Shown here piece by piece: positions 35,785 to 49,803 of a DNA stretch of 64,000 nucleotides. This stretch comes from Streptomyces sp. KMM 9044. Lineage in GTDB: Bacteria > Actinomycetota > Actinomycetes > Streptomycetales > Streptomycetaceae. The notes beneath the pieces were generated by a model, which saw only the letters and a list, made by a program, of their open reading frames with translations, made no database searches and was not told the origin of the DNA. The position numbers and the translations under genes are program-made. How positions within the stretch are numbered: position 1 is the first letter of the stretch; every line of letters starts with the position of its first letter. The stretch is from positions 5,146,001 to 5,210,000 of the forward strand of contig NZ_CP113910.1 in NCBI RefSeq assembly GCF_024701375.2, in the 5' to 3' direction.

Positions 35785-37701
<1,917 letters not shown>

Positions 37702-37721
37702 ACAGCCGCTTCGAGGGGTTC

Positions 37722-37763
37722 GACGGGGCCCCGCCCGCCGTGTCCGGCGGGCGGGGCCCCGTC
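37722..37763 (+). terminator. leuA terminator
   Basis: An 18-bp perfect GC-rich stem with a 6-nt loop starts 20 bp after the leuA stop and is not followed by a U-run. Confidence 0.85.
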
Positions 37764-37887
37764 GGTTACCGGCCAAATCCCGTGGAGATCACGGAAAGGT
37801 CTCGTCCGGGGTGCTGACTCGGCCTCACCGATGTGGCTAACATCACGGGGGCGCGGCGACGGAGCCGGGGCGATGTGGAGGTGCGAC

Positions 37888-38589
37888 GTGCTGCCAGGAC
37901 GGGGACCCGACGGCCGTGCCGTTGTCGCCAGACTTTCGCGCCTGCTGGGCACCCGGACCGCGTGGACGGCCGTCGGTGACGGCGAGTTCTTCTGCCCCGG
38001 CTGCGGCGGCGACCGCAACTACCGGCGGCTGACCGGACAGCGCCGCTTCGCCCTCCTCGGTGTGCCCGTCGTGCCCCGCGGCACGACCGGGCCGGTCGTC
38101 GAATGCGCCGCCTGCCGCCGCCACTTCGGCACCGACGTCCTGGACCACCCCACCACCACCCGCTTCTCCGCGATGCTCCGCGACGCCGTGCACACCGTCG
38201 CCCTCGCGGTACTGGCCGCGGGCGGCGCCTGCGCGCGCGCCTCACTGGAGACCGCCGTGACCGTCGTCCGCGCGGCCGGTATCGACGACTGCACCCAGGA
38301 CCAGCTGGCGGCCCTCGTGGAGGCGCTGGCCGCCGACACCGGCCGCTTCACCGGCGAGCCCTGTGCGGCGGGCCTCGCCATCGAGCTGCACGAAGCCCTC
38401 GACCCGCTGGCCCCGCACCTCGCCGCTCCCGGCCGCGAATCGATCTTCCTCCAGGGTGCCCGCATCGCCCTCGCAGACGGCCCCTACACCCCCGCCGAAC
38501 GCGACACCCTGTCCACCATCGGCGCCGCCCTCGCCATCTGCGCGACGGACGTGACCCGCCTGCTGACGGTGGCCCGGACGCCGTCCTGA
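37888..38589 (+). CDS. TerB-like protein with N-terminal zinc ribbon
   Basis: The 233-aa protein starts at GTG 37888, 6 nt after a GGAGG site; the longer upstream frame is rejected. It opens with a zinc-ribbon-like pair, FFCPGCGGDRNYR and VECAACRRHFG. A helical region of the tellurite-resistance TerB type follows (FSAMLRDAVHTVALAVLAAG, then ESIFLQGARIALADGPYTPAERDTL). TerB-like domains are membrane-surface or signalling modules; no tellurite operon is nearby. It is monocistronic between the leuA terminator and a convergent acetyltransferase. Confidence 0.75.
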   Translation: MLPGRGPDGRAVVARLSRLLGTRTAWTAVGDGEFFCPGCGGDRNYRRLTGQRRFALLGVPVVPRGTTGPVVECAACRRHFGTDVLDHPTTTRFSAMLRDAVHTVALAVLAAGGACARASLETAVTVVRAAGIDDCTQDQLAALVEALAADTGRFTGEPCAAGLAIELHEALDPLAPHLAAPGRESIFLQGARIALADGPYTPAERDTLSTIGAALAICATDVTRLLTVARTPS

Positions 38590-38609: not shown

Positions 38610-39158
38610 TCAGTGGAAACCGGTGAGTCCGAGGTGCATGATCAGGCGGTCCTGGCCGGGGCCGAAGTAGTCCCGGCGCGGCCCGGCGTCGGGTTGCTCG
38701 GGGCGAAAGCCCAGGGACCGGTAGAGCAGGATGGCCGCGCGGTTGGCGGGTTCCACTGTCAGACGGACCTGTGTGATGCCGCTCTCGCGCAGCCGCGCCA
38801 GGACCTCCACCATCAGCTCCCGGCCCAGTCCGTGGCGGCGGCGCTCCTCGTCCACGCACAGACCGAGGATCCAGCTCTCCCGGTTGAGTGCCGTGGTCGC
38901 GGCCAGGACGTAGCCGCGCAGGCGTCCCTCGCCGTCGTCGAGGACCAGGAGGTGCTCGGCGTACATGTCGTAGAGCTGGCGGAACAGGAACGCGGGGTAC
39001 GCGACCTCCTGGAAGACCGCCTCGTCGAGCCGCCGGAGCTCGGACAGGTCGGACTCCCGCGCCGGCCGCAGGACCAGGGGCCGCGGGTCGGGGAAGAGGT
39101 CCGGTTCCCCGAGGAACCCGCGGCGGTCCAGGGCGTGCTCCAGCGGTTCGGCGGTCAT
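38610..39158 (-). CDS. GNAT family N-acetyltransferase
   Basis: The 182-aa protein has the GNAT fold. It shows LRPARESDLSELRRLDEAVF at the start, GYVLAATTALNRESWILGLCVDEERRRHGLGRELM-like core strands with the acetyl-CoA pyrophosphate loop RRRHGLG, and the C-terminal PANRAAILLYRSLGFRPE. The acceptor is unknown. GGGGGTGG precedes the ATG. It converges with the TerB-like gene, 20 bp away, and is divergent from the unassigned cassette to its right. Confidence 0.83.
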   Translation of the reverse strand: MTAEPLEHALDRRGFLGEPDLFPDPRPLVLRPARESDLSELRRLDEAVFQEVAYPAFLFRQLYDMYAEHLLVLDDGEGRLRGYVLAATTALNRESWILGLCVDEERRRHGLGRELMVEVLARLRESGITQVRLTVEPANRAAILLYRSLGFRPEQPDAGPRRDYFGPGQDRLIMHLGLTGFH

Positions 39159-39297
39159 GCCACCCCCAGTCGGGACGTACGGAACGGTCGGGATGTGCGG
39201 ACATGCGGACGGCGTACGAACGCACAGCCGTCAACACCGGCGCCCCTGCGGAGGCTCACTCATGGGTGACGAGGGCCCCGGTGGCGGCCGGTTACTT

Positions 39298-39345
39298 CAA
39301 CTCGCTACAGTGAGCGTCCAACTCGCTGAGAGCAAGAGCGAGTTG
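39298..39345. promoter_or_regulatory. CAACTCGCT repeat cluster upstream of the cassette
   Basis: CAACTCGCT occurs at 39298-39306 and 39319-39327, exactly 21 bp apart (two helical turns). Its inverse AGCGAGTTG lies at 39337-39345. A TACAGT -10-like hexamer (39306-39311) sits inside the array, as does a small CGCT/AGCG dyad. This looks like a cooperative repressor or activator site controlling the cassette, about 205 bp upstream of its first start. Nothing else is recognised in the gap 39159-39550. Confidence 0.55.
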
Positions 39346-39550
39346 AGGTTTGTCGGCGAAGTGCTGACGTGCGCCTGTCGTGCGCCTCTTCGTCCAGGGT
39401 CGGCCGGATTACCGGCTCTCCAGGTGTTCTGCACCGGTTTACCGTGCGAGTACCGGCAGACCGTGCTCCACCTGCCGATGTCCGTGAGGGCAGGCATACG
39501 GAGCGCAGGGTTTTGTCCGGTACTGACGGGACAGGGAACACGACAGGGTG

Positions 39551-40303
39551 ATGATGGATCGCAACGCCGACGCGCCGTGGGCGCAGTTCGATCCCGAGGC
39601 CTACGTCGACCTCAACTACCGAACTCCGCTCGAAGTCGATCTGCTGATCGTGCGGTTGATGCGCGACCACTTCAGCAGGTGCTTCGCCGGCGGTGTCCCG
39701 GACCCGATGCGAGGTGTCGACGTCGGCGCGGGCGCGAACCTCTATCCGGGCCTGGCCATGCTCCCGTGGTGCGAGAAGATCACCCTGCTCGAGTACGCGC
39801 AGCCGAACGTCGAGTACCTGGAGCGGCAGACGTCCCCCAAGGGTTACGACGAGGCCTGGGACGCGTTCTGGAACGAGCTGAACGAGGCTCCCGCGTACGC
39901 CGCCGTCGAACCGAAGGGCCGGTTCGGCGAGATCGTCCGCGTGGAGCGGGCCAGCCTGCTCGACCTCGACGGACAGCGGCGCTGGGACATCGGCACGATG
40001 TTCTTCGTCGCGGACTCGATGTCCGAGTGCCCCGACGAATTCAGGCGGGGCGTACGGTGCTTCATGGACGCGCTGACCGAGGGAGCTCCCTTCGCCGCCG
40101 CGTTCATGAAGGAGTCGGTCGGTTACCAGGTCGGCGAACACCGTTATCCGGCCTGCCGGGTGAACGAGGACCGGGTCCGGGAGAGCCTGGAGCCCTTCAC
40201 TTCCGAGCTGGTGATTCACGATCTGCATCACATGGTGCGGGCGGGTCACGAGGGAATCATCCTTGCCCTGGGACGGCGCAATCCGGAGATTGCCGTCCCC
40301 TAG
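39551..40303 (+). CDS. SCO2525-family SAM-dependent methyltransferase
   Basis: The 250-aa protein is a class I methyltransferase resembling the NNMT/PNMT/TEMT group. GVDVGAGANLYPGLAMLPW is the SAM loop. ITLLEYAQPNVEYLERQ, with an acidic residue ending strand 2 and the YLE helix, is typical of small-amine methyltransferases. TMFFVADSMSECPDEFRRGV follows at strand 4. Its methyl acceptor is unknown. Three start codons stand in a row (GTG 39548, ATG 39551, ATG 39554) behind GACAGGG. It heads a run of five genes also kept together in S. coelicolor (SCO2525 onward, from memory). Confidence 0.82.
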   Translation: MMDRNADAPWAQFDPEAYVDLNYRTPLEVDLLIVRLMRDHFSRCFAGGVPDPMRGVDVGAGANLYPGLAMLPWCEKITLLEYAQPNVEYLERQTSPKGYDEAWDAFWNELNEAPAYAAVEPKGRFGEIVRVERASLLDLDGQRRWDIGTMFFVADSMSECPDEFRRGVRCFMDALTEGAPFAAAFMKESVGYQVGEHRYPACRVNEDRVRESLEPFTSELVIHDLHHMVRAGHEGIILALGRRNPEIAVP

Positions 40304-40358
40304 GAGCGGGGACGATGTCCGAACACAGGGCAACCAGGTCTGTACGAGGGGTGCGGGG

Positions 40359-42200
40359 ATGCAGATCAAGCCACGGCAGCATCTGCTGGACATCTGGCGG
40401 GCCGCGGCCCGTCATTTGTTCGACGACGGAAAGCTCGTCTGGGGGGACACCGACGGGCTGAGTTCCGTCGCGGACGCCGAGCGGCTGCTCTGCCTGCTGT
40501 ATCCCGCCACCGAGGTCCCCGCGTTCCGCCTCGACCAACCGGACACCACCGAGCGGGACGTCCTGCGCGCGCTGGAGCGGGTCGGCAGCAGGCTGGAGAT
40601 CCCGCCCAACCTGATCACCGTCCTGTCCCAGTTCATGCGCACCCACACCGGACCGGACGACAGTCCCACCTTCTCCGGCGGGCACTACTTCAGGCCTGCC
40701 GACCCGAAGCAGGAACTCACCTATGAACAGACCCAGTTGGGCATCGTCGACGCCTACTCCATGTCCGTCACGCTGTGCCTGGCCACCCTGGGGTTCCTCA
40801 AGGTCTACGAGGAGAACACCACCCGGCCCGAGGTGCGCAGGTCGCTCGGGGAACTGAGAGACGCCACCAACACCCGGCTGACCGCGGCGATGGTCAGCCT
40901 GTTGCGCTCCTTCACCGTGAACGTCTTCGACGCCGAGTCCGAGCAGGGCCGACGGCTGATCCAGGTCATCGGGCAGAACCAGCAGTCCGACCGGGCCGTG
41001 CTCCAGCACTTCTCCCGCCGGTTCCGCCCGCTGCGCGCCACGATCATCGAAAGTCTCAGCCGCGGCATCGAGGTCGACGAGAGCATCCGCGACGAGAGCC
41101 AGCTCTTCGAGTGCGGCTGGGCCTGGGGAGTGGTGAAGGACGCGCCGGCCGTCGTCGACCTGGACGTCCCGGTCAACGGCCAGCCCGACGGCATCGCCGA
41201 CCGGCTGCCCTACGTGTACTTCACCGTCGTCGCCCTGGACGGCATCCAGGACCTGTTCTCCGAGCGCACCCTCACCCTGGGACTGCTCGACGCCGACCAG
41301 CAGAAGCTCGCCGAGGCGTTACGCCTGCGCTGGGAACTCAGCCAGCAGTACTGGTCGGCCATCGCCCGCTTCGGCACCGAGCGCTGGCCCCTGGAGGACC
41401 TCCCCTGGCAGACCACCGGTCTGCGGCTGGAGTCGGAGTACTTCTCCCTCACCGTGGCGGCGATCCTCGTCCACGACCTGATCCGCCGCAGGGCGACCGA
41501 CGACGACCTCACCCGCACCGTCGCCATCATGGAACGCCTCGCCGACCGGGGCCGCGTCACCAGCCGGATGACCAGGGACGACCCCACCGTCGGGCTGCAC
41601 CACCCGGGGGTCACCATGCCGCTCGCCGGGTCCGGGCGGTCCGGTGCGCCGCTGGAGTGGCGGATGACGGACTTCTCCGCACAGCTGCTCAAGCGGATCA
41701 TCCAGCTCGCGGCACTCTCCCGGAACATCGCGGCACAGGACCGCCTGATCCGCCTGGGCGAGCAGGCGTTCGAACACCTGTGGAGCCGGAGGATCGAGGA
41801 CGGCGACGGAGCCGGCCTCTGGGACAACGCGGCAGCCGTCTTCCCGGACGCGGCCGTCGGCCGGCGCCTCTCCTGGAGCATCACCGAACGCATCACCGAG
41901 TGCCTGGTCGCCGCCCGCGGCCTGTACGAGCAGGAGCCCATCCGCAGCCCCGAACTCGCCGAGCTGGCCCGCGAACTGCTCAGCGAGGCCACCCACCTGT
42001 TCGGCAAGGAGCAGCTGGAGACCTCCGCCACCGTCGACGGCGGCCGGGGGCGGGCCATGCGGAGCATCGAGAACCGTCTGGACCACGCCCGCGACCTGGT
42101 CGACGAGCGTCCCGCCACCGCGTTCGCACTCGCCCTGCCGGTGCTCCGGGAGCTCGACACCCTGGCCCAGGCCCGCGGTGCCGCCGCAGAGGAGATGTGA
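40359..42200 (+). CDS. SCO2524-family protein of unknown function
   Basis: The 613-aa protein is hydrophilic and predicted mostly helical, with no signal peptide, membrane segment or known catalytic motif. It starts MQIKPRQHLLDIWRAAARHL; the central and C-terminal regions include SQQYWSAIARFGTERWPLE, LSRNIAAQDRLIRLGEQAF and SIENRLDHARDLVDERPATA. Codon 321 is TTA (41319-41321), so translation should require the bldA tRNA. ATG 40359 has GAGGGG about 8 nt upstream; an upstream extension lacks support. It is 55 bp after the methyltransferase and 3 bp before the P-loop gene. It may be a scaffold or sensor, which is a guess. Confidence 0.78.
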   Translation: MQIKPRQHLLDIWRAAARHLFDDGKLVWGDTDGLSSVADAERLLCLLYPATEVPAFRLDQPDTTERDVLRALERVGSRLEIPPNLITVLSQFMRTHTGPDDSPTFSGGHYFRPADPKQELTYEQTQLGIVDAYSMSVTLCLATLGFLKVYEENTTRPEVRRSLGELRDATNTRLTAAMVSLLRSFTVNVFDAESEQGRRLIQVIGQNQQSDRAVLQHFSRRFRPLRATIIESLSRGIEVDESIRDESQLFECGWAWGVVKDAPAVVDLDVPVNGQPDGIADRLPYVYFTVVALDGIQDLFSERTLTLGLLDADQQKLAEALRLRWELSQQYWSAIARFGTERWPLEDLPWQTTGLRLESEYFSLTVAAILVHDLIRRRATDDDLTRTVAIMERLADRGRVTSRMTRDDPTVGLHHPGVTMPLAGSGRSGAPLEWRMTDFSAQLLKRIIQLAALSRNIAAQDRLIRLGEQAFEHLWSRRIEDGDGAGLWDNAAAVFPDAAVGRRLSWSITERITECLVAARGLYEQEPIRSPELAELARELLSEATHLFGKEQLETSATVDGGRGRAMRSIENRLDHARDLVDERPATAFALALPVLRELDTLAQARGAAAEEM

Positions 42201-42203
42201 GCC

Positions 42204-43121
42204 GTGCTCGTCTTCGCCGCCTCCGACAAGGGAGGCACGGGCCGTTCGGTCACCAGCGCCAACCTGGCCTATCAGCGCGCTCTCACCGGTGACCACGTGG
42301 CGTACGTGGACTTCGACTTCGGCTCGCCCACGGCCGCCGCCGTCTTCGACGTACCGGGCGCGATGCGCGGCGTCGCGGAGCGGGGCCTGCACTCCTACCT
42401 GGAGGGCGAGGTCGCGGAACCGGCCAGGATCGACGTCTGGCGGCAGACCGAGCACCCCCTGCTGCACGCCCGGCCGAACCAGTCCGGCCGCCTGGCCCTG
42501 TTCCCCGGCGACGCCGGCGGTGGCGAGTTCGTCACCGGCGAGGAGACCCTCGACCGGTGTGTCGACCTCCTGCTCCGGCTGAACGGCGAGTTCGACCTGA
42601 CTGTGGTGGACCTCAGCGCCGGCCGCAGCTACGCCGTGGACATGGTCCTGGCGGCGACCGCCCACCCCCGGATGCGTTACGTGCCCTTCCGCTGGCTCGT
42701 CTTCCACCGCTGGACCCGGCAGCACGTGATCGCCGCCGCCGGGCTGGTCCACAAGGAACACGGCATCATCAGGGGCGGCGTCGACCGCGGGCACGACGAG
42801 CAGGCCCTGCGGGGCGCCGTCCGGTTCGTACGGGCCGCGGTGCCCGACCCCGACTCGCCCATGTGGGCCCAGAGGTCTCTCGCCCAGATCGCCTGGATGG
42901 ATTCCTGCGACGAAGCCCTGCGCCGGCTCGCCTCGGACCACCTCGTCGGCGACAGCGTGGTCCTCGGCGCCGTACCGCTGGAACCCGTCCTGCAGTGGCG
43001 CGAGCAGCTGATCACCGAAGAGGACGTGTTCTCCACCCAGATCGCCAACAAGGAGACGCTCGAGGCGCTGGAGGAGATCGCGCGACGCCTGACCGACGAC
43101 TCCTGCTGGGGGCGGCCGTGA
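42204..43121 (+). CDS. SCO2523-family variant P-loop (ParA-like) protein
   Basis: This 305-aa protein has the ParA/MinD architecture. It opens with MLVFAASDKGGTGRSVTSAN; the deviant Walker A keeps the signature Lys (K9) but has Arg at position 14 where ParA has the second Lys. HVAYVDFDFGSPT and FDLTVVDLSAGRS correspond to the switch regions. KGGxGR P-loops are known from other actinobacterial signalling proteins, so ATP binding with altered hydrolysis is plausible. GTG 42204 follows GGAG. Its stop overlaps the next start by 4 bp (GTGA). Confidence 0.82.
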   Translation: MLVFAASDKGGTGRSVTSANLAYQRALTGDHVAYVDFDFGSPTAAAVFDVPGAMRGVAERGLHSYLEGEVAEPARIDVWRQTEHPLLHARPNQSGRLALFPGDAGGGEFVTGEETLDRCVDLLLRLNGEFDLTVVDLSAGRSYAVDMVLAATAHPRMRYVPFRWLVFHRWTRQHVIAAAGLVHKEHGIIRGGVDRGHDEQALRGAVRFVRAAVPDPDSPMWAQRSLAQIAWMDSCDEALRRLASDHLVGDSVVLGAVPLEPVLQWREQLITEEDVFSTQIANKETLEALEEIARRLTDDSCWGRP

Positions 43122-44083
43122 CGGACGCAGTGTTCCGCGAGACCACCGCCGAACCGCGCACCCAGGCGCTGCCGCTGTCCCACCTCTCCCTGGAGCTGGG
43201 CCACCTCTACATGGAGGACTTCGAGGCCGGTCCGCAGCACCTGCGGCGGCACTTCGCACAGGTACGGCCCTGGGCGGACGCGGCGCGGGCCGCGGCGGCC
43301 GCGCAGACGGGCGGAAAACGCCCCCGGATCAGCACCTGCTTCCTCATCGACGACTACTTCACCCGGTTCTCCAGTCCCGCCGAACTCGTTCCGCTGCTGC
43401 TGGCGGAGGCGGAACGGGCCGGGCTGGCCGTCGACTACCTGGCCCGCGAGTCCGGCTGCGCCGTCGCCGGCAAAGTACCGGTCGCGGAGGCGGTGGCCGG
43501 CCGCATCGTCGAGGAGCCACCGCCCGGCAGCTACGGCCTGCGCCCGCCGGCCGCGCAGACCGGCTGGCTGGCCAACGGCGAGCGCAGCCCCGCCGCGCGT
43601 GCCCCGCAGGCGATGAAGAGGGCAGCCGCCTGGCAGCCGCCCAGGGAGACCGCGGCCCGCCGCCACTCCGTCTTCCTCGACGTCGAACTCTGGAGCGACG
43701 CACCCGACGGACAGCGCACCTGGTCCTGCCCCTTCCTCGCCGCGGTGTGGCAGCTCGCCCGTCTCGGGCTGCTGCGCACCGAGGGCGAGGCTGTCCTGAC
43801 GCCCCAGCCGCACACCGCCGACGGCTTCCCCGAGGACTGGGACGAACTGCCCCCGCTGATCCGGCTCGACCCCCGGGCGGACCCGTTCGCCGCCTACCGC
43901 ACCTGCTCGGTGGTGCCCAACCGGTTCCTGCCCGTCGAGCACGCCGTCCGCGTCGTCCTCGACCAGACCGAGGTGGACCCCGAAGCCCTGAGCCAGGTCG
44001 CCCGCCGGTCCGCCGGTGAGAAGGTGACCGTCCCCGCCCCGGTCGCCGACCGCGTCTCCTACGTCTTCTACGCGGGGCCGTGA
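43118..44083 (+). CDS. SCO2522-family protein of unknown function
   Basis: This 321-aa soluble protein is translationally coupled to the P-loop gene by the GTGA overlap. It starts with LPLSHLSLELGHLYMEDF, continues PRISTCFLIDDYFTRFSSPAEL and LAVDYLARESGCAVAG, and ends CSVVPNRFLPVEHAVRVVL, then ADRVSYVFYAGP. The ISTCFLIDDYF strand with acidic residues suggests an alpha/beta fold, but no catalytic family is recognised. Homologues occur only beside the other members of this cassette as far as I recall. Confidence 0.78.
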   Translation: MTDAVFRETTAEPRTQALPLSHLSLELGHLYMEDFEAGPQHLRRHFAQVRPWADAARAAAAAQTGGKRPRISTCFLIDDYFTRFSSPAELVPLLLAEAERAGLAVDYLARESGCAVAGKVPVAEAVAGRIVEEPPPGSYGLRPPAAQTGWLANGERSPAARAPQAMKRAAAWQPPRETAARRHSVFLDVELWSDAPDGQRTWSCPFLAAVWQLARLGLLRTEGEAVLTPQPHTADGFPEDWDELPPLIRLDPRADPFAAYRTCSVVPNRFLPVEHAVRVVLDQTEVDPEALSQVARRSAGEKVTVPAPVADRVSYVFYAGP

Positions 44084-44084
44084 C

Positions 44085-45119
44085 GTGGGGCCGGCAACGA
44101 CCGCGCCGCGTGTCGTGCTCGCCTGCGGCGAGGTCCGCACCTCACTGCTGCCGGCCCTGCAGGCCCTCGACAGCCGGGCCGCCGCCCTGTTCCTCGGTCT
44201 GCGCGCCGACGAACGCGTCCTCCTCTCCGAACGCCCCAACCGCTACGGGCGCTCGCCCGACACCCTGACCGGTGTCGACTGCCCCCTGCCCAGCGCCAAC
44301 GGCGCCCGGGTCCGCGCCGTCGGCACGGTCGCCGCACGGGCCGTACTCACCGAGGGGCGTCTGCTCCAGGCCTCCGCGTACTTCGAAGTGCCCGCCGGCG
44401 GCCCCGACCACCGGCGGCCGTGGGGCCAGTACCTGGTACGGCCAGGGGTGGTCGAGCCGTTCGGGAAGCTGCCCCACGAGGCGGTGGCCGAGGGCGTGCT
44501 GAGCGGCGGGCGGCACGGCGATCTCGACATCGGCCTGATCGCGGACGGACTGCACACCCGGCTGCTGCGCCACCCCCTGCTCGACCACCGGCCGCCCCTG
44601 AGATCCCGCCCCACCCGGCTCCGCTGGGTGGCCCTGCCCGCGGACCCGGGCGCAGGCCACTCGATCGAGCGGTTCACCCTCGCCGAGGACGAGTTGCGCA
44701 CCGTGCGGCTCCGGGTTCCCGAGGGCACACCCAGCGACAGGATCGCCGGGCTCTGCGACGACCTCGCCCTGCACGACTGGCTGCTCACCACCGTGGTCCG
44801 CATTTTCGACGGCATCCGGCTGGAGGCGGGCGCGGGTGCTGCGGGGGCACCGCCCGCCCGGCGGCGGCAGCGGCCGGGAGCGGAAGCGGGAGGGGAGCAT
44901 CCCGCCGTGGTCCGGGCGCTGCGTCCCGCCGTCGACCATCTGCTGCATCTGTGGATGCCCCGGGCCCGGGTGGCGCAGGACCTGGCCCCGCTCTGGGACG
45001 CGCTGGAGGAACGGCCGGGCTTCTCCCGGCAGTGGCAGACTCTCGTCCAGCGCATCCGTGACCAGCTGACCCTGCACGCGATCCCCTCCCTCCACAGGGA
45101 GGGGGACAGGGGGCCCTGA
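44085..45119 (+). CDS. SCO2521-family protein of unknown function
   Basis: The 344-aa protein starts at GTG 44085, one base after the preceding stop. N-terminal strands (RVVLACGEVRTSLLPALQAL) lead to a mixed alpha/beta body, LIADGLHTRLLRHPLLDHRPP and LRWVALPADPGAGHSIERFTL. A helical C-terminus follows (ALRPAVDHLLHLWMPRARVA, QDLAPLWDALEERPGFSRQW). No membrane segment or known motif is seen. It closes the block of five contiguous, nearly overlapping genes, implying one operon and probably one complex or pathway. Confidence 0.78.
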   Translation: MGPATTAPRVVLACGEVRTSLLPALQALDSRAAALFLGLRADERVLLSERPNRYGRSPDTLTGVDCPLPSANGARVRAVGTVAARAVLTEGRLLQASAYFEVPAGGPDHRRPWGQYLVRPGVVEPFGKLPHEAVAEGVLSGGRHGDLDIGLIADGLHTRLLRHPLLDHRPPLRSRPTRLRWVALPADPGAGHSIERFTLAEDELRTVRLRVPEGTPSDRIAGLCDDLALHDWLLTTVVRIFDGIRLEAGAGAAGAPPARRRQRPGAEAGGEHPAVVRALRPAVDHLLHLWMPRARVAQDLAPLWDALEERPGFSRQWQTLVQRIRDQLTLHAIPSLHREGDRGP

Positions 45120-45205
45120 CCGGGCACCGGGCAGCCGCCGGCCCCGGCCCCACGCACATTTCCGCACTCCGATCCGACGCGTATCCCAACGGGGGGAAGA
45201 GCGAG

Positions 45206-46396
45206 ATGAGCACGGCACCATCACCTGAGTCCGAGGGCACCCAGCCCGAACCCGGCACGGCGGTCCCCGCACAGGCGGGCCCGCCGGACGACCCGGGCAG
45301 CACGGCGTTATCCCCTTCGGCCGCCACACCGGTCGTGCCGGACGTACCGAGCACACCGGACGAGCCACCCGGTCCGGCCCCGTGGACGCGTCGGCTGCCG
45401 GCCGGGCTGGTCCTCGGCCTCCTCGCCTGGGGTGTCGCCGCGCTGCTCGCCCCGGACGCCGGTGCAGCCAGGCAGCTCGCCGCCGCCGCGCTCTGCGCCG
45501 GCGGTGCCGTGGCCCTCCAGTACCTCCTCGCCCCATCCCGCGGGGGGCGGGAGCGGCGGGCGGAGCGCGCACTGGCCGAAACCGCCGCCACCGTGCAGGA
45601 CGGTCTCCAGCGGTACGACGACGAACTGACGGCCGGTCTCGCCCGGCACGGCGAGGACATGAAGCACCTGGTCGAGAGCCGTTTCGCCCAGCTGGACCGG
45701 CCCTCTCAGCCCTACCCGCCGCTGGACCGGGTCCGGATGGACGGCCTGCCCGAACTGGCCCAGCGCTTCGCCGACGTCCTGGCGCCCGGATCCCCGCTCC
45801 TCTACTCGTTCATCCGGCTGGAGATGCAACGGGTGATCGGGCACATGTCGGCGCTCACCCGGCTGAACGTGGAGAGCCACGGGGAGAACCACGACTGGAT
45901 GCTCACCCTCACCCAGGTCGCGGAGCAGTCCATCTGCGCCATCAGTACGTCCGTCGACCGGGAGTTCTGGAGCAGCGAGCCCGCGGGCCGCTACCTCGAC
46001 GCGCAGAAGCAGGCGATCGAGGAGCACGGGGTGCCCGTGCGGCGCCTGTTCCTGCTGGAGAGCGCCCGCGAACTCGACGACCGGCTGCTGCGGCTGTGCG
46101 ACGAGCAGGAGGCGCTGGGCATCGAGGTACGTGTGGCGGTGCTGCCCGAACTGCCGCCGCACATCCAGCGCGGCCACGCCAACGACTTCATCGTCTACGA
46201 CGAGGAAGTGTCCTTCGAGATCGAGCAGGACCTGCGTGACGTCAACGTCAGAACCCGGCTCATCGCCCACCCGGACCACGTCCAGGACCAGATGAAGCGT
46301 TTCTGGAAGCTCTGGGAGGCGGGGATGAGTATCCGTGAACTGGAGGTGCGGGTCGACGACGAGGAGGACGGCACCTGGATGGTCGACCGTACCTGA
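45206..46396 (+). CDS. membrane-anchored protein with C-terminal soluble domain
   Basis: The 396-aa protein has a 60-residue Pro/Ser-rich N-terminus and two close membrane spans (AGLVLGLLAWGVAALLAP, QLAAAALCAGGAVALQYLLA). A coiled-coil-like stretch (ERALAETAATVQDGLQRYDD) leads to a 210-residue cytoplasmic domain. That part (FWSSEPAGRYLDAQKQAIEE, VRRLFLLESARELDDRLLRL, ANDFIVYDEEVSFEIEQDL) resembles phospholipase-D-fold regions lacking the catalytic HKD; this is an inference. Codon 35 is TTA. It follows the cassette by 86 bp in the same direction and may tether it to the membrane. Confidence 0.7.
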   Translation: MSTAPSPESEGTQPEPGTAVPAQAGPPDDPGSTALSPSAATPVVPDVPSTPDEPPGPAPWTRRLPAGLVLGLLAWGVAALLAPDAGAARQLAAAALCAGGAVALQYLLAPSRGGRERRAERALAETAATVQDGLQRYDDELTAGLARHGEDMKHLVESRFAQLDRPSQPYPPLDRVRMDGLPELAQRFADVLAPGSPLLYSFIRLEMQRVIGHMSALTRLNVESHGENHDWMLTLTQVAEQSICAISTSVDREFWSSEPAGRYLDAQKQAIEEHGVPVRRLFLLESARELDDRLLRLCDEQEALGIEVRVAVLPELPPHIQRGHANDFIVYDEEVSFEIEQDLRDVNVRTRLIAHPDHVQDQMKRFWKLWEAGMSIRELEVRVDDEEDGTWMVDRT

Positions 46397-48966: not shown

Positions 48967-49803
48967 ATGGCCGTACGCGGGTTCCTGGGGCGTCAGCGCC
49001 GGGAGTACAGGACGCCGGAACCACACCCCTCCGGCGCGCGGCCCCCGAGGTTCCCGGGCGAGCTGGTCCCCAAGCACGTGGCGATCGTGATGGACGGCAA
49101 CGGCCGCTGGGCCAAGGAACGGGGCCTGCCGCGCACCGAGGGGCACAAGGTCGGCGCCGAGCGGGTGCTGGACGTGCTCCAGGGCGGGATCGAGATGGGC
49201 GTCGGCGCGATCTCGCTGTACGCCTTCTCCACCGAGAACTGGAAGCGCTCGCCGGACGAGGTGCGCTTCCTGATGAACTTCAACCGCGACTTCATCCGCA
49301 CGTCCCGTGACGAGCTCGACGAGCTGGGTGTGCGGGTGCGCTGGGTGGGCCGGATGCCCAAGCTGTGGAAGTCGGTCGCCAGGGAACTCCAGATCGCGCA
49401 GGAGCAGACCAAGGGCAACGACCGGCTGACGCTGTACTTCTGCATGAACTACGGCGGGCGGGCGGAGATCGCCGATGCGGCGCAGGCGCTGGCCGAGGAC
49501 GTGAAGGCGGGACGTCTCGACCCGGCGAAGGTCAACGAGAAGACGCTGCAGAGCTACATGTACTACCCGGACATGCCGGACGTGGACCTGTTCCTGCGGC
49601 CGAGCGGTGAGCAGCGTACGTCCAACTACCTGCTGTGGCAGAGCGCCTACGCCGAGATGGTCTTCCAGGACGTCCTGTGGCCGGACTTCGACCGCCGGGA
49701 CCTGTGGCGCGCGTGTCTGGAATTCGCCTCCCGCGACCGCCGCTTCGGCGGGGCGATCCCGAACGAGGAGCTGCTCGCCATGGAGGGCAGGCAGGAGCAG
49801 TAG
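48967..49803 (+). CDS. uppS: isoprenyl transferase (undecaprenyl diphosphate synthase family)
   Basis: The 278-aa cis-prenyltransferase makes the polyprenyl carrier lipid for cell-wall synthesis. Its catalytic Asp is D43 in [20 protein letters not shown]. Other conserved parts are [23 protein letters not shown] and [27 protein letters not shown] site precedes the ATG. Product chain length cannot be read from the sequence. It is the last gene before a shared terminator with the convergent zur gene. Confidence 0.93.

Follow-up and report, generated by a model that had tools for sequence, protein, structure and literature searches.

An SCO2521-SCO2525-type gene cassette of Streptomyces and its relatives: a conserved four-gene core with an exchangeable last component

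Introduction

Two bodies of earlier work bear on the cassette of SCO2521-SCO2525-type genes described here, found in a stretch of 64,000 nucleotides from Streptomyces sp. KMM 9044 (contig NZ_CP113910.1, positions 5,146,001 to 5,210,000; this whole stretch is called the window). The first concerns Streptomyces coelicolor. According to excerpts of PMC11472566, expression of the operon sco2521-sco2526 changed only in strains without HupS, the operon is assigned to the HupS regulon, and Gehring et al. 2004 is cited there for SCO2525 being needed for normal growth. In an excerpt of PMC6344877, SCO2525 is presented as a putative methyltransferase that acts in morphogenesis, in agreement with the developmental link that an earlier note on this DNA had suggested, and an excerpt of PMC3017869 mentions SCO2525 mutagenesis. 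What is already known comes down to the gene families and this one phenotype. The work of Gehring and colleagues was reportedly a screen for developmental mutants.

The second body of work deals with the nucleoside triphosphate (NTP)-dependent conflict systems of multicellular bacteria (VMAP, iSTAND, EACC1). In the excerpt of PMC7159879, Trypco domains are named, small adaptor domains are described as common to core and effector proteins (effector-associated domains), and MinD/ParA-like domains of conflict systems are predicted to be inactive. Judged against that excerpt, the cassette is similar in being multi-gene and patchy, in its presence in Streptomyces, in its NTPase-like switch and in its variable output. 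Multi-component systems of this sort are the closest known kind, and we claim no membership because their defining cores were not found.

No paper treating the cassette as a system was found in the open-access literature searched, and the excerpt of a paper on the synteny of Streptomyces orphan proteins (PMC13118837) does not mention it. The earlier note had named the genes as the best candidate in the window for an undescribed system; this holds for the system as a whole in that literature, but not for the operon and the SCO2525 mutant, both cited in the excerpt of PMC11472566. In the literature searched we likewise found no description of how the seven genes are laid out, of their four-gene core, of the predicted aminoacyl-tRNA synthetase (aaRS)-like fold of the SCO2522 family, of a last component that is exchanged or of the link with a NACHT protein.

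A four-gene core within a seven-gene set

The genes of the cassette co-occur far beyond chance. We profiled 112 loci including the window, all of them selected for carrying the SCO2524-family gene (H24), which served as the search key. A pattern scan for H24 with one genome per species gave 289 matching stretches, 259 of which encode a relative; the best 80 of these 259 were used (78 from Streptomyces, 1 from Kitasatospora and 1 from an “Actinobacteria bacterium”). By profile, H24 was present in 112 loci, the ParA/MinD-like P23 and the SCO2522-family U22 in 111 each, the SCO2521-family U21 in 110, the methyltransferase MT25 in 104, the GNAT acetyltransferase in 98 and the membrane protein MemF in 97, two of the loci without MT25 or GNAT (L059 and L025) being cut by contig ends. 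We take H24-P23-U22-U21 as the core, and neither MT25 nor MemF, because its members are found in 110 to 112 of the loci against 104 and 97. All four stand together in 110 loci, and the whole set of seven in 93, i.e., 90 of the 96 Streptomycetaceae-type loci and 3 of the 16 others. The seven genes are thus co-inherited as a unit in Streptomycetaceae, and the four-gene core is kept in other families too. These counts confirm that the genes form one conserved unit, as the earlier note had supposed; its unit of five genes plus a membrane companion is indeed co-inherited, but two of those six lie outside the core, and the divergent GNAT gene had been overlooked.

The core is compact, with median gaps between matched domains of 6, -1 and 7 bp. 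GNAT recurred by blastp in 84 Streptomyces-type loci and 4 others; among the 96 loci holding both genes, GNAT and MT25 diverge in 95 and are less than 600 bp apart in all 96. Outside the typical arrangement, one locus (L120) has two tandem copies of the core, one of them followed by MemF. Another genus (L127-L129) has the core but lacks MT25, the GNAT typical of the unit, MemF and the NACHT gene; there, a GNAT of another kind precedes H24 and a glyoxalase-domain protein follows U21. In L025 (325-6387), a remnant of MT25 with a stop, 43% identical over its part, lies near the contig end, and MemF is divergent (28%) in comparison with the four core proteins (71-89% identical), so both cassette ends can be replaced or degenerate independently of the core. 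Other irregular loci were seen. Two H24 genes in multi-copy genomes (L118:12987-14819 and L130:8628-10417) lack a P23, U22 and U21 set of their own, the one in L130 being split over two frames and adjoining an NB-ARC-WD40 gene, and P23 of L126 (10658-11583) is broken into two overlapping frames by a frameshift or a sequencing error.

In the window the order is GNAT, divergent, then MT25-H24-P23-U22-U21-MemF (Table 1). The six genes are on one strand at the positions that the earlier note had given them, with spacings of 55, 3, -4, 1 and 86 bp, so that four of them are at most 3 bp apart or overlap. All five proteins from MT25 to U21 exceed the curated cut-offs of NCBIfam families NF040564-NF040568, which, as the note stated, are named after SCO2521-SCO2525 and carry no function. 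MemF falls outside these families, and into no other NCBIfam family above cut-off. GNAT, presumably the SCO2526-like gene judging by its position, cannot share one transcript with the other genes since it is divergent, unlike the “operon sco2521-sco2526” of S. coelicolor. Between GNAT and MT25, inverted repeats (39319-39327/39337-39345 and 39294-39306/39337-39349) make the segment 39294-39349 of this promoter region a possible candidate operator; the word AACTCGCC, related to these repeats, is found in 44 of 96 GNAT/MT25 intergenic regions, a recurrence that may reflect only common descent. The flanks of the unit (35980-38589 and 48967-49803) code for a leuA-type 2-isopropylmalate synthase, a TerB-domain protein and, downstream, an undecaprenyl diphosphate synthase.

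Table 1. Features of the cassette locus, in window positions
Feature	Position	Strand	Length	Profile match or basis
GNAT N-acetyltransferase (GNAT26), divergent partner	38610..39158	-		PF00583 58.1 bits
Divergent intergenic region GNAT/MT25 with inverted repeats	39159..39550	none		
MT25, SCO2525-family S-adenosylmethionine (SAM) methyltransferase	39551..40303	+	250 aa	NF040568 312 bits (cut-off 240)
H24, SCO2524-family protein	40359..42200	+	613 aa	NF040567 933.9 bits (cut-off 300)
P23, SCO2523-family ParA/MinD-like variant P-loop protein	42204..43121	+	305 aa	NF040564 495.7 bits (cut-off 200)
U22, SCO2522-family protein	43118..44083	+	321 aa	NF040566 489.9 bits (cut-off 200)
U21, SCO2521-family protein, alpha+beta then helical	44085..45119	+	344 aa	NF040565 405.8 bits (cut-off 150)
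MemF, two-span membrane protein, DUF6879-like C-terminal part	45206..46396	+	396 aa	predicted topology

Exchange of the last gene

The gene following U21 is exchangeable, coding for MemF, a channel-like protein or a DUF4062-NACHT-HEAT protein. The two hydrophobic spans that the earlier note had read from the MemF sequence lie at residues 64-82 and 91-109. Outside Streptomycetaceae-type loci it appears in L116 and L119-L122, belonging to two other families. Its C-terminal part resembles DUF6879 proteins, which are found beside XRE-DUF5753 regulators: 14 of 16 aligned MemF members match at E <=0.01 (best 1.9e-9), and MemF differs from them in having a membrane anchor and in that the window copy stays below the Pfam cut-off (PF21806, 18.4 bits against 23.9). 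Elsewhere in the same genome (L204:454-6475, C1 699-709 kb) there are two DUF6879 genes, an XRE-DUF5753 regulator and a P-loop ATPase gene that is STAND-like by reading.

Two loci (L016 and L117) have, behind U21, a gene for a protein with no Pfam match and, by reading the sequence, a channel-like C-terminus; a hydropathy test gives two spans for one of these proteins and a single span for the other. A 1404-aa NACHT-HEAT protein, whose first 84 residues are a DUF4062 domain (scanned in L123), takes the place in one genus (g8). The membrane companion of the earlier note is present in most loci (97/112), but it is replaceable, by a STAND NTPase in this genus. The DUF4062-NACHT-HEAT protein was detected at E <=1e-100 in 27 of 121 genomes of g8, in two of them as two overlapping pieces. 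The core adjoins its gene in 26 of the 27 (four profiled loci and 22 of 23 others, the exception being L226), a proportion counted from the NACHT-bearing genomes; from the H24 side, the four known g8 cassettes all have the NACHT gene. Comparing the 2.3 kb that precede MT25 in 24 NACHT-bearing loci gave 15 sequence clusters, so that, on the MT25 side, the link between core and NACHT gene is not simple synteny. One locus that also has the NACHT gene contains, upstream of MT25, a MemF-like profile match with no Pfam match (L208:6996-7892). DUF4062 is described, in the excerpt of a preprint (PMC13174449), as a TIR-like NADase of an antiphage system, Swarozyc. The likeness to it lies in the DUF4062 domain of the g8 neighbour, and in the window MemF stands in that place.

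These data bear on the simplest alternative, that the genes are loose neighbours with separate functions brought together by chance synteny. A leuA homologue is present in 54 of the 80 Streptomyces-type loci with at least 5 kb of upstream sequence, as in the window, which speaks for this alternative. However, the core is intact in other families, even in the 7 loci in which U21 is inverted yet still adjoins U22, it occurs in tandem copies in L120, and it adjoins the NACHT gene despite differing upstream flanks. Core constancy and the NACHT-adjacent loci already contradict chance synteny, which we regard as extremely improbable.

The proteins of the cassette

P23 belongs to the ParA/MinD kind by profile (CbiA, PF01656, 27.3 bits, cut-off 25.4). 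Its motif reads KGGTGRS in 109 of 111 aligned rows and KGGAGRT in 1, the region being missing in the last, so that Arg replaces the P-loop lysine of KGGxGK[ST] in 110 of the 110 rows covering the position. It remains below the cut-off of NF047398, a variant AAA ATPase with a KGGVGR motif (36.3 bits, E 7.1e-9, against 90 bits). The earlier note had pictured a localised, developmentally timed modification or signalling complex. In a ParA/MinD-type version close to this idea, P23 would place a complex of H24, U22 and U21, together with MT25, at membrane sites marked by MemF, for a timed modification in hyphae. The profile of P23 and the membrane spans of MemF are as expected for such positioning, but the replaced lysine makes the ATPase cycle that ParA-type positioning requires doubtful, several core-bearing families have no MemF, and Pfam detects nothing like ParB or MinE as a partner in the six proteins. 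A positioning complex is accordingly possible but decidedly unlikely.

U22 is predicted to have a class I aaRS-like (HUP) fold, corresponding to the catalytic domain of those synthetases. It differs from class I aminoacyl-tRNA synthetases and MshC in lacking their signatures: neither HIGH (H[ILVM]GH) nor KMSKS (K[MLF]SK[SR]) was found in any of 108 rows of at least 280 aa. Comparison by hhalign with cysteinyl-tRNA synthetase (CysRS), MshC and arginyl-tRNA synthetase (ArgRS) gave probabilities of at most 0.5 per cent, the same as for control families of the cassette.

MT25 resembles the nicotinamide and phenylethanolamine N-methyltransferases (NNMT and PNMT) over most of its length (PF01234, NNMT/PNMT/TEMT, 34.3 bits, cut-off 25), with profile matches to solved chains of NNMT (E 5.2e-9) and PNMT (8.6e-8), a SAM motif I pattern in 99 of 104 rows and an FDPxxY..NY start. 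Unlike those enzymes it is bacterial, its family being assigned by profile and motif. With two transferases and a ligase-like fold present, the cassette might instead code for a small-molecule or peptide-signal pathway that times development, in which U22 would activate or transfer an amino acid, MT25 N-methylate and GNAT acetylate the product, P23 with H24 and U21 organise the enzymes, and MemF sense or export that product. Yet MT25 is missing in 8 and GNAT26 in 14 of the 112 loci while H24 and P23 stay, U22 has neither signature motif, and a NACHT protein as a fixed neighbour would not be expected. Such a pathway seems to us possible, if somewhat unlikely, and ranks second after the surveillance module discussed below.

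The C-terminal part of H24 and the comparison with conflict systems

A stretch matching the final ~80 residues of H24 forms the C-terminus of a TPR-like protein in each of two genomes (E 2.4e-11 and 2.6e-12); the TPR match of these proteins is itself below cut-off. Both are accompanied by a trypsin-like protease and by a protein of the Trypco1 type, an arrangement that resembles, in few cases, the adaptor sharing of conflict systems. In the one of the two genomes that also has Trypco2 and a trypsin-NACHT protein, the conflict-type locus L133 (913-11099) runs in the order Trypco1, trypsin-like, TPR-like with the H24 C-terminal part, Trypco2 and trypsin-NACHT (2330 aa). A weak profile match (E 0.006), possibly by chance, also relates the C-terminal part of the window H24 (41913-42191) to C-terminal helices in solved chains of YacP. 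A likeness to the conflict systems of PMC7159879, as excerpted, lies in the MinD/ParA-like proteins predicted to be inactive, and the domain common to H24 and a Trypco/trypsin locus may be another. A further one is the variable effector of NTP-dependent conflict systems (Kaur et al. 2020), to which the variable last gene would correspond if it acts as an effector.

Of 316 genomes sampled across the phylum, 8 carry H24, and 7 of these 8 are among the 13 listed for the window's genus. In the window's family it was present in 36 of 200 genomes (35 over the cut-off), and in another order in 14 of 200 genomes and 6 of 60 genera, with up to three copies per genome. Inside genera, too, the presence of H24 is patchy.

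Interpretation

We read the cassette, tentatively and with a probability of about 0.38, as a nucleotide-controlled multi-protein module for surveillance or signalling, of the conflict-system type. Five observations point this way: the core is inherited together, the last gene is exchangeable, there is a link with a NACHT protein, the tail of H24 recurs in other proteins, and the distribution is patchy. As to complex formation, ligand, enzyme activities and direction of control, we infer that H24, P23, U22 and U21 would form a cytoplasmic complex, with H24 as the scaffold whose C-terminal domain couples to partners. P23 could be a switch or latch of the ParA/MinD type that holds its nucleotide, Arg in place of the P-loop Lys allowing slow or no hydrolysis, and U22 a HUP domain of the class I aaRS-like kind, put to a new use in binding the sensed ligand, perhaps an adenylate, an amino acid or a tRNA end. 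Upon a trigger, the complex would turn on the output, i.e., MemF or the channel-like protein at the membrane, or the NLR-like DUF4062-NACHT-HEAT protein, which would all be effectors. The NNMT-like MT25 and GNAT may make or silence a small-molecule signal; without them the module would be wrongly set, and this would account for the published SCO2525 phenotype.

Several results weigh against the cassette being a surveillance module. H24 had no match on 72,556 plasmid and 50,697 phage records, and the recurrent leuA neighbourhood of the Streptomyces-type loci fits a resident physiological system. Cores of the MoxR, vWA, EACC1, caspase and DO-GTPase-GAP1 kinds were not recognised in the six proteins or GNAT by NCBIfam and Pfam, and the cassette differs from conflict systems in having no recognised MoxR-vWA, GAP1-GTPase or EACC1-caspase core (Pfam, six proteins). 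PADLOC 2023 gave no convincing system match for the six proteins, with one 18.9-bit match to P23. The relation of U22 to aaRS has no sequence-profile support, as hhalign was not above the controls. The H24 tail is rare, with 3 proteins including the query in a word-limited database search, and of the two genomes sharing it, one (G541) has an intact cassette and the other (G550) only the C-terminal match. Finally, the NACHT link is limited to one genus, and the joint presence of a MemF-like match and the NACHT gene in L208 indicates that the two outputs are not strictly exclusive.

A bolder version, which we consider unlikely, is that the surveillance module represents a new immune or self-surveillance class of multicellular actinobacteria, combining a signature-less aaRS-fold sensor (for example of tRNA ends that are damaged, or of an adenylate made by a phage) and a ParA-like latch with Arg in its P-loop with an output exchanged among membrane DUF6879-like, channel-like and NLR-like NADase proteins. 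MT25 could then methylate nicotinamide, the product of a NADase, which would link the first and last genes in the NACHT-bearing version.

Significance

If the seven-gene set is a functional unit, the SCO2525 phenotype becomes testable as that of a mis-set surveillance module, beyond a metabolic defect. The DUF4062-NACHT-HEAT link, found in one genus (26/27), makes the cassette directly accessible to a defence assay. If the prediction for U22 is true, a class I aaRS fold that has lost its signatures would be at work within a conserved signalling unit, a new use of that fold.

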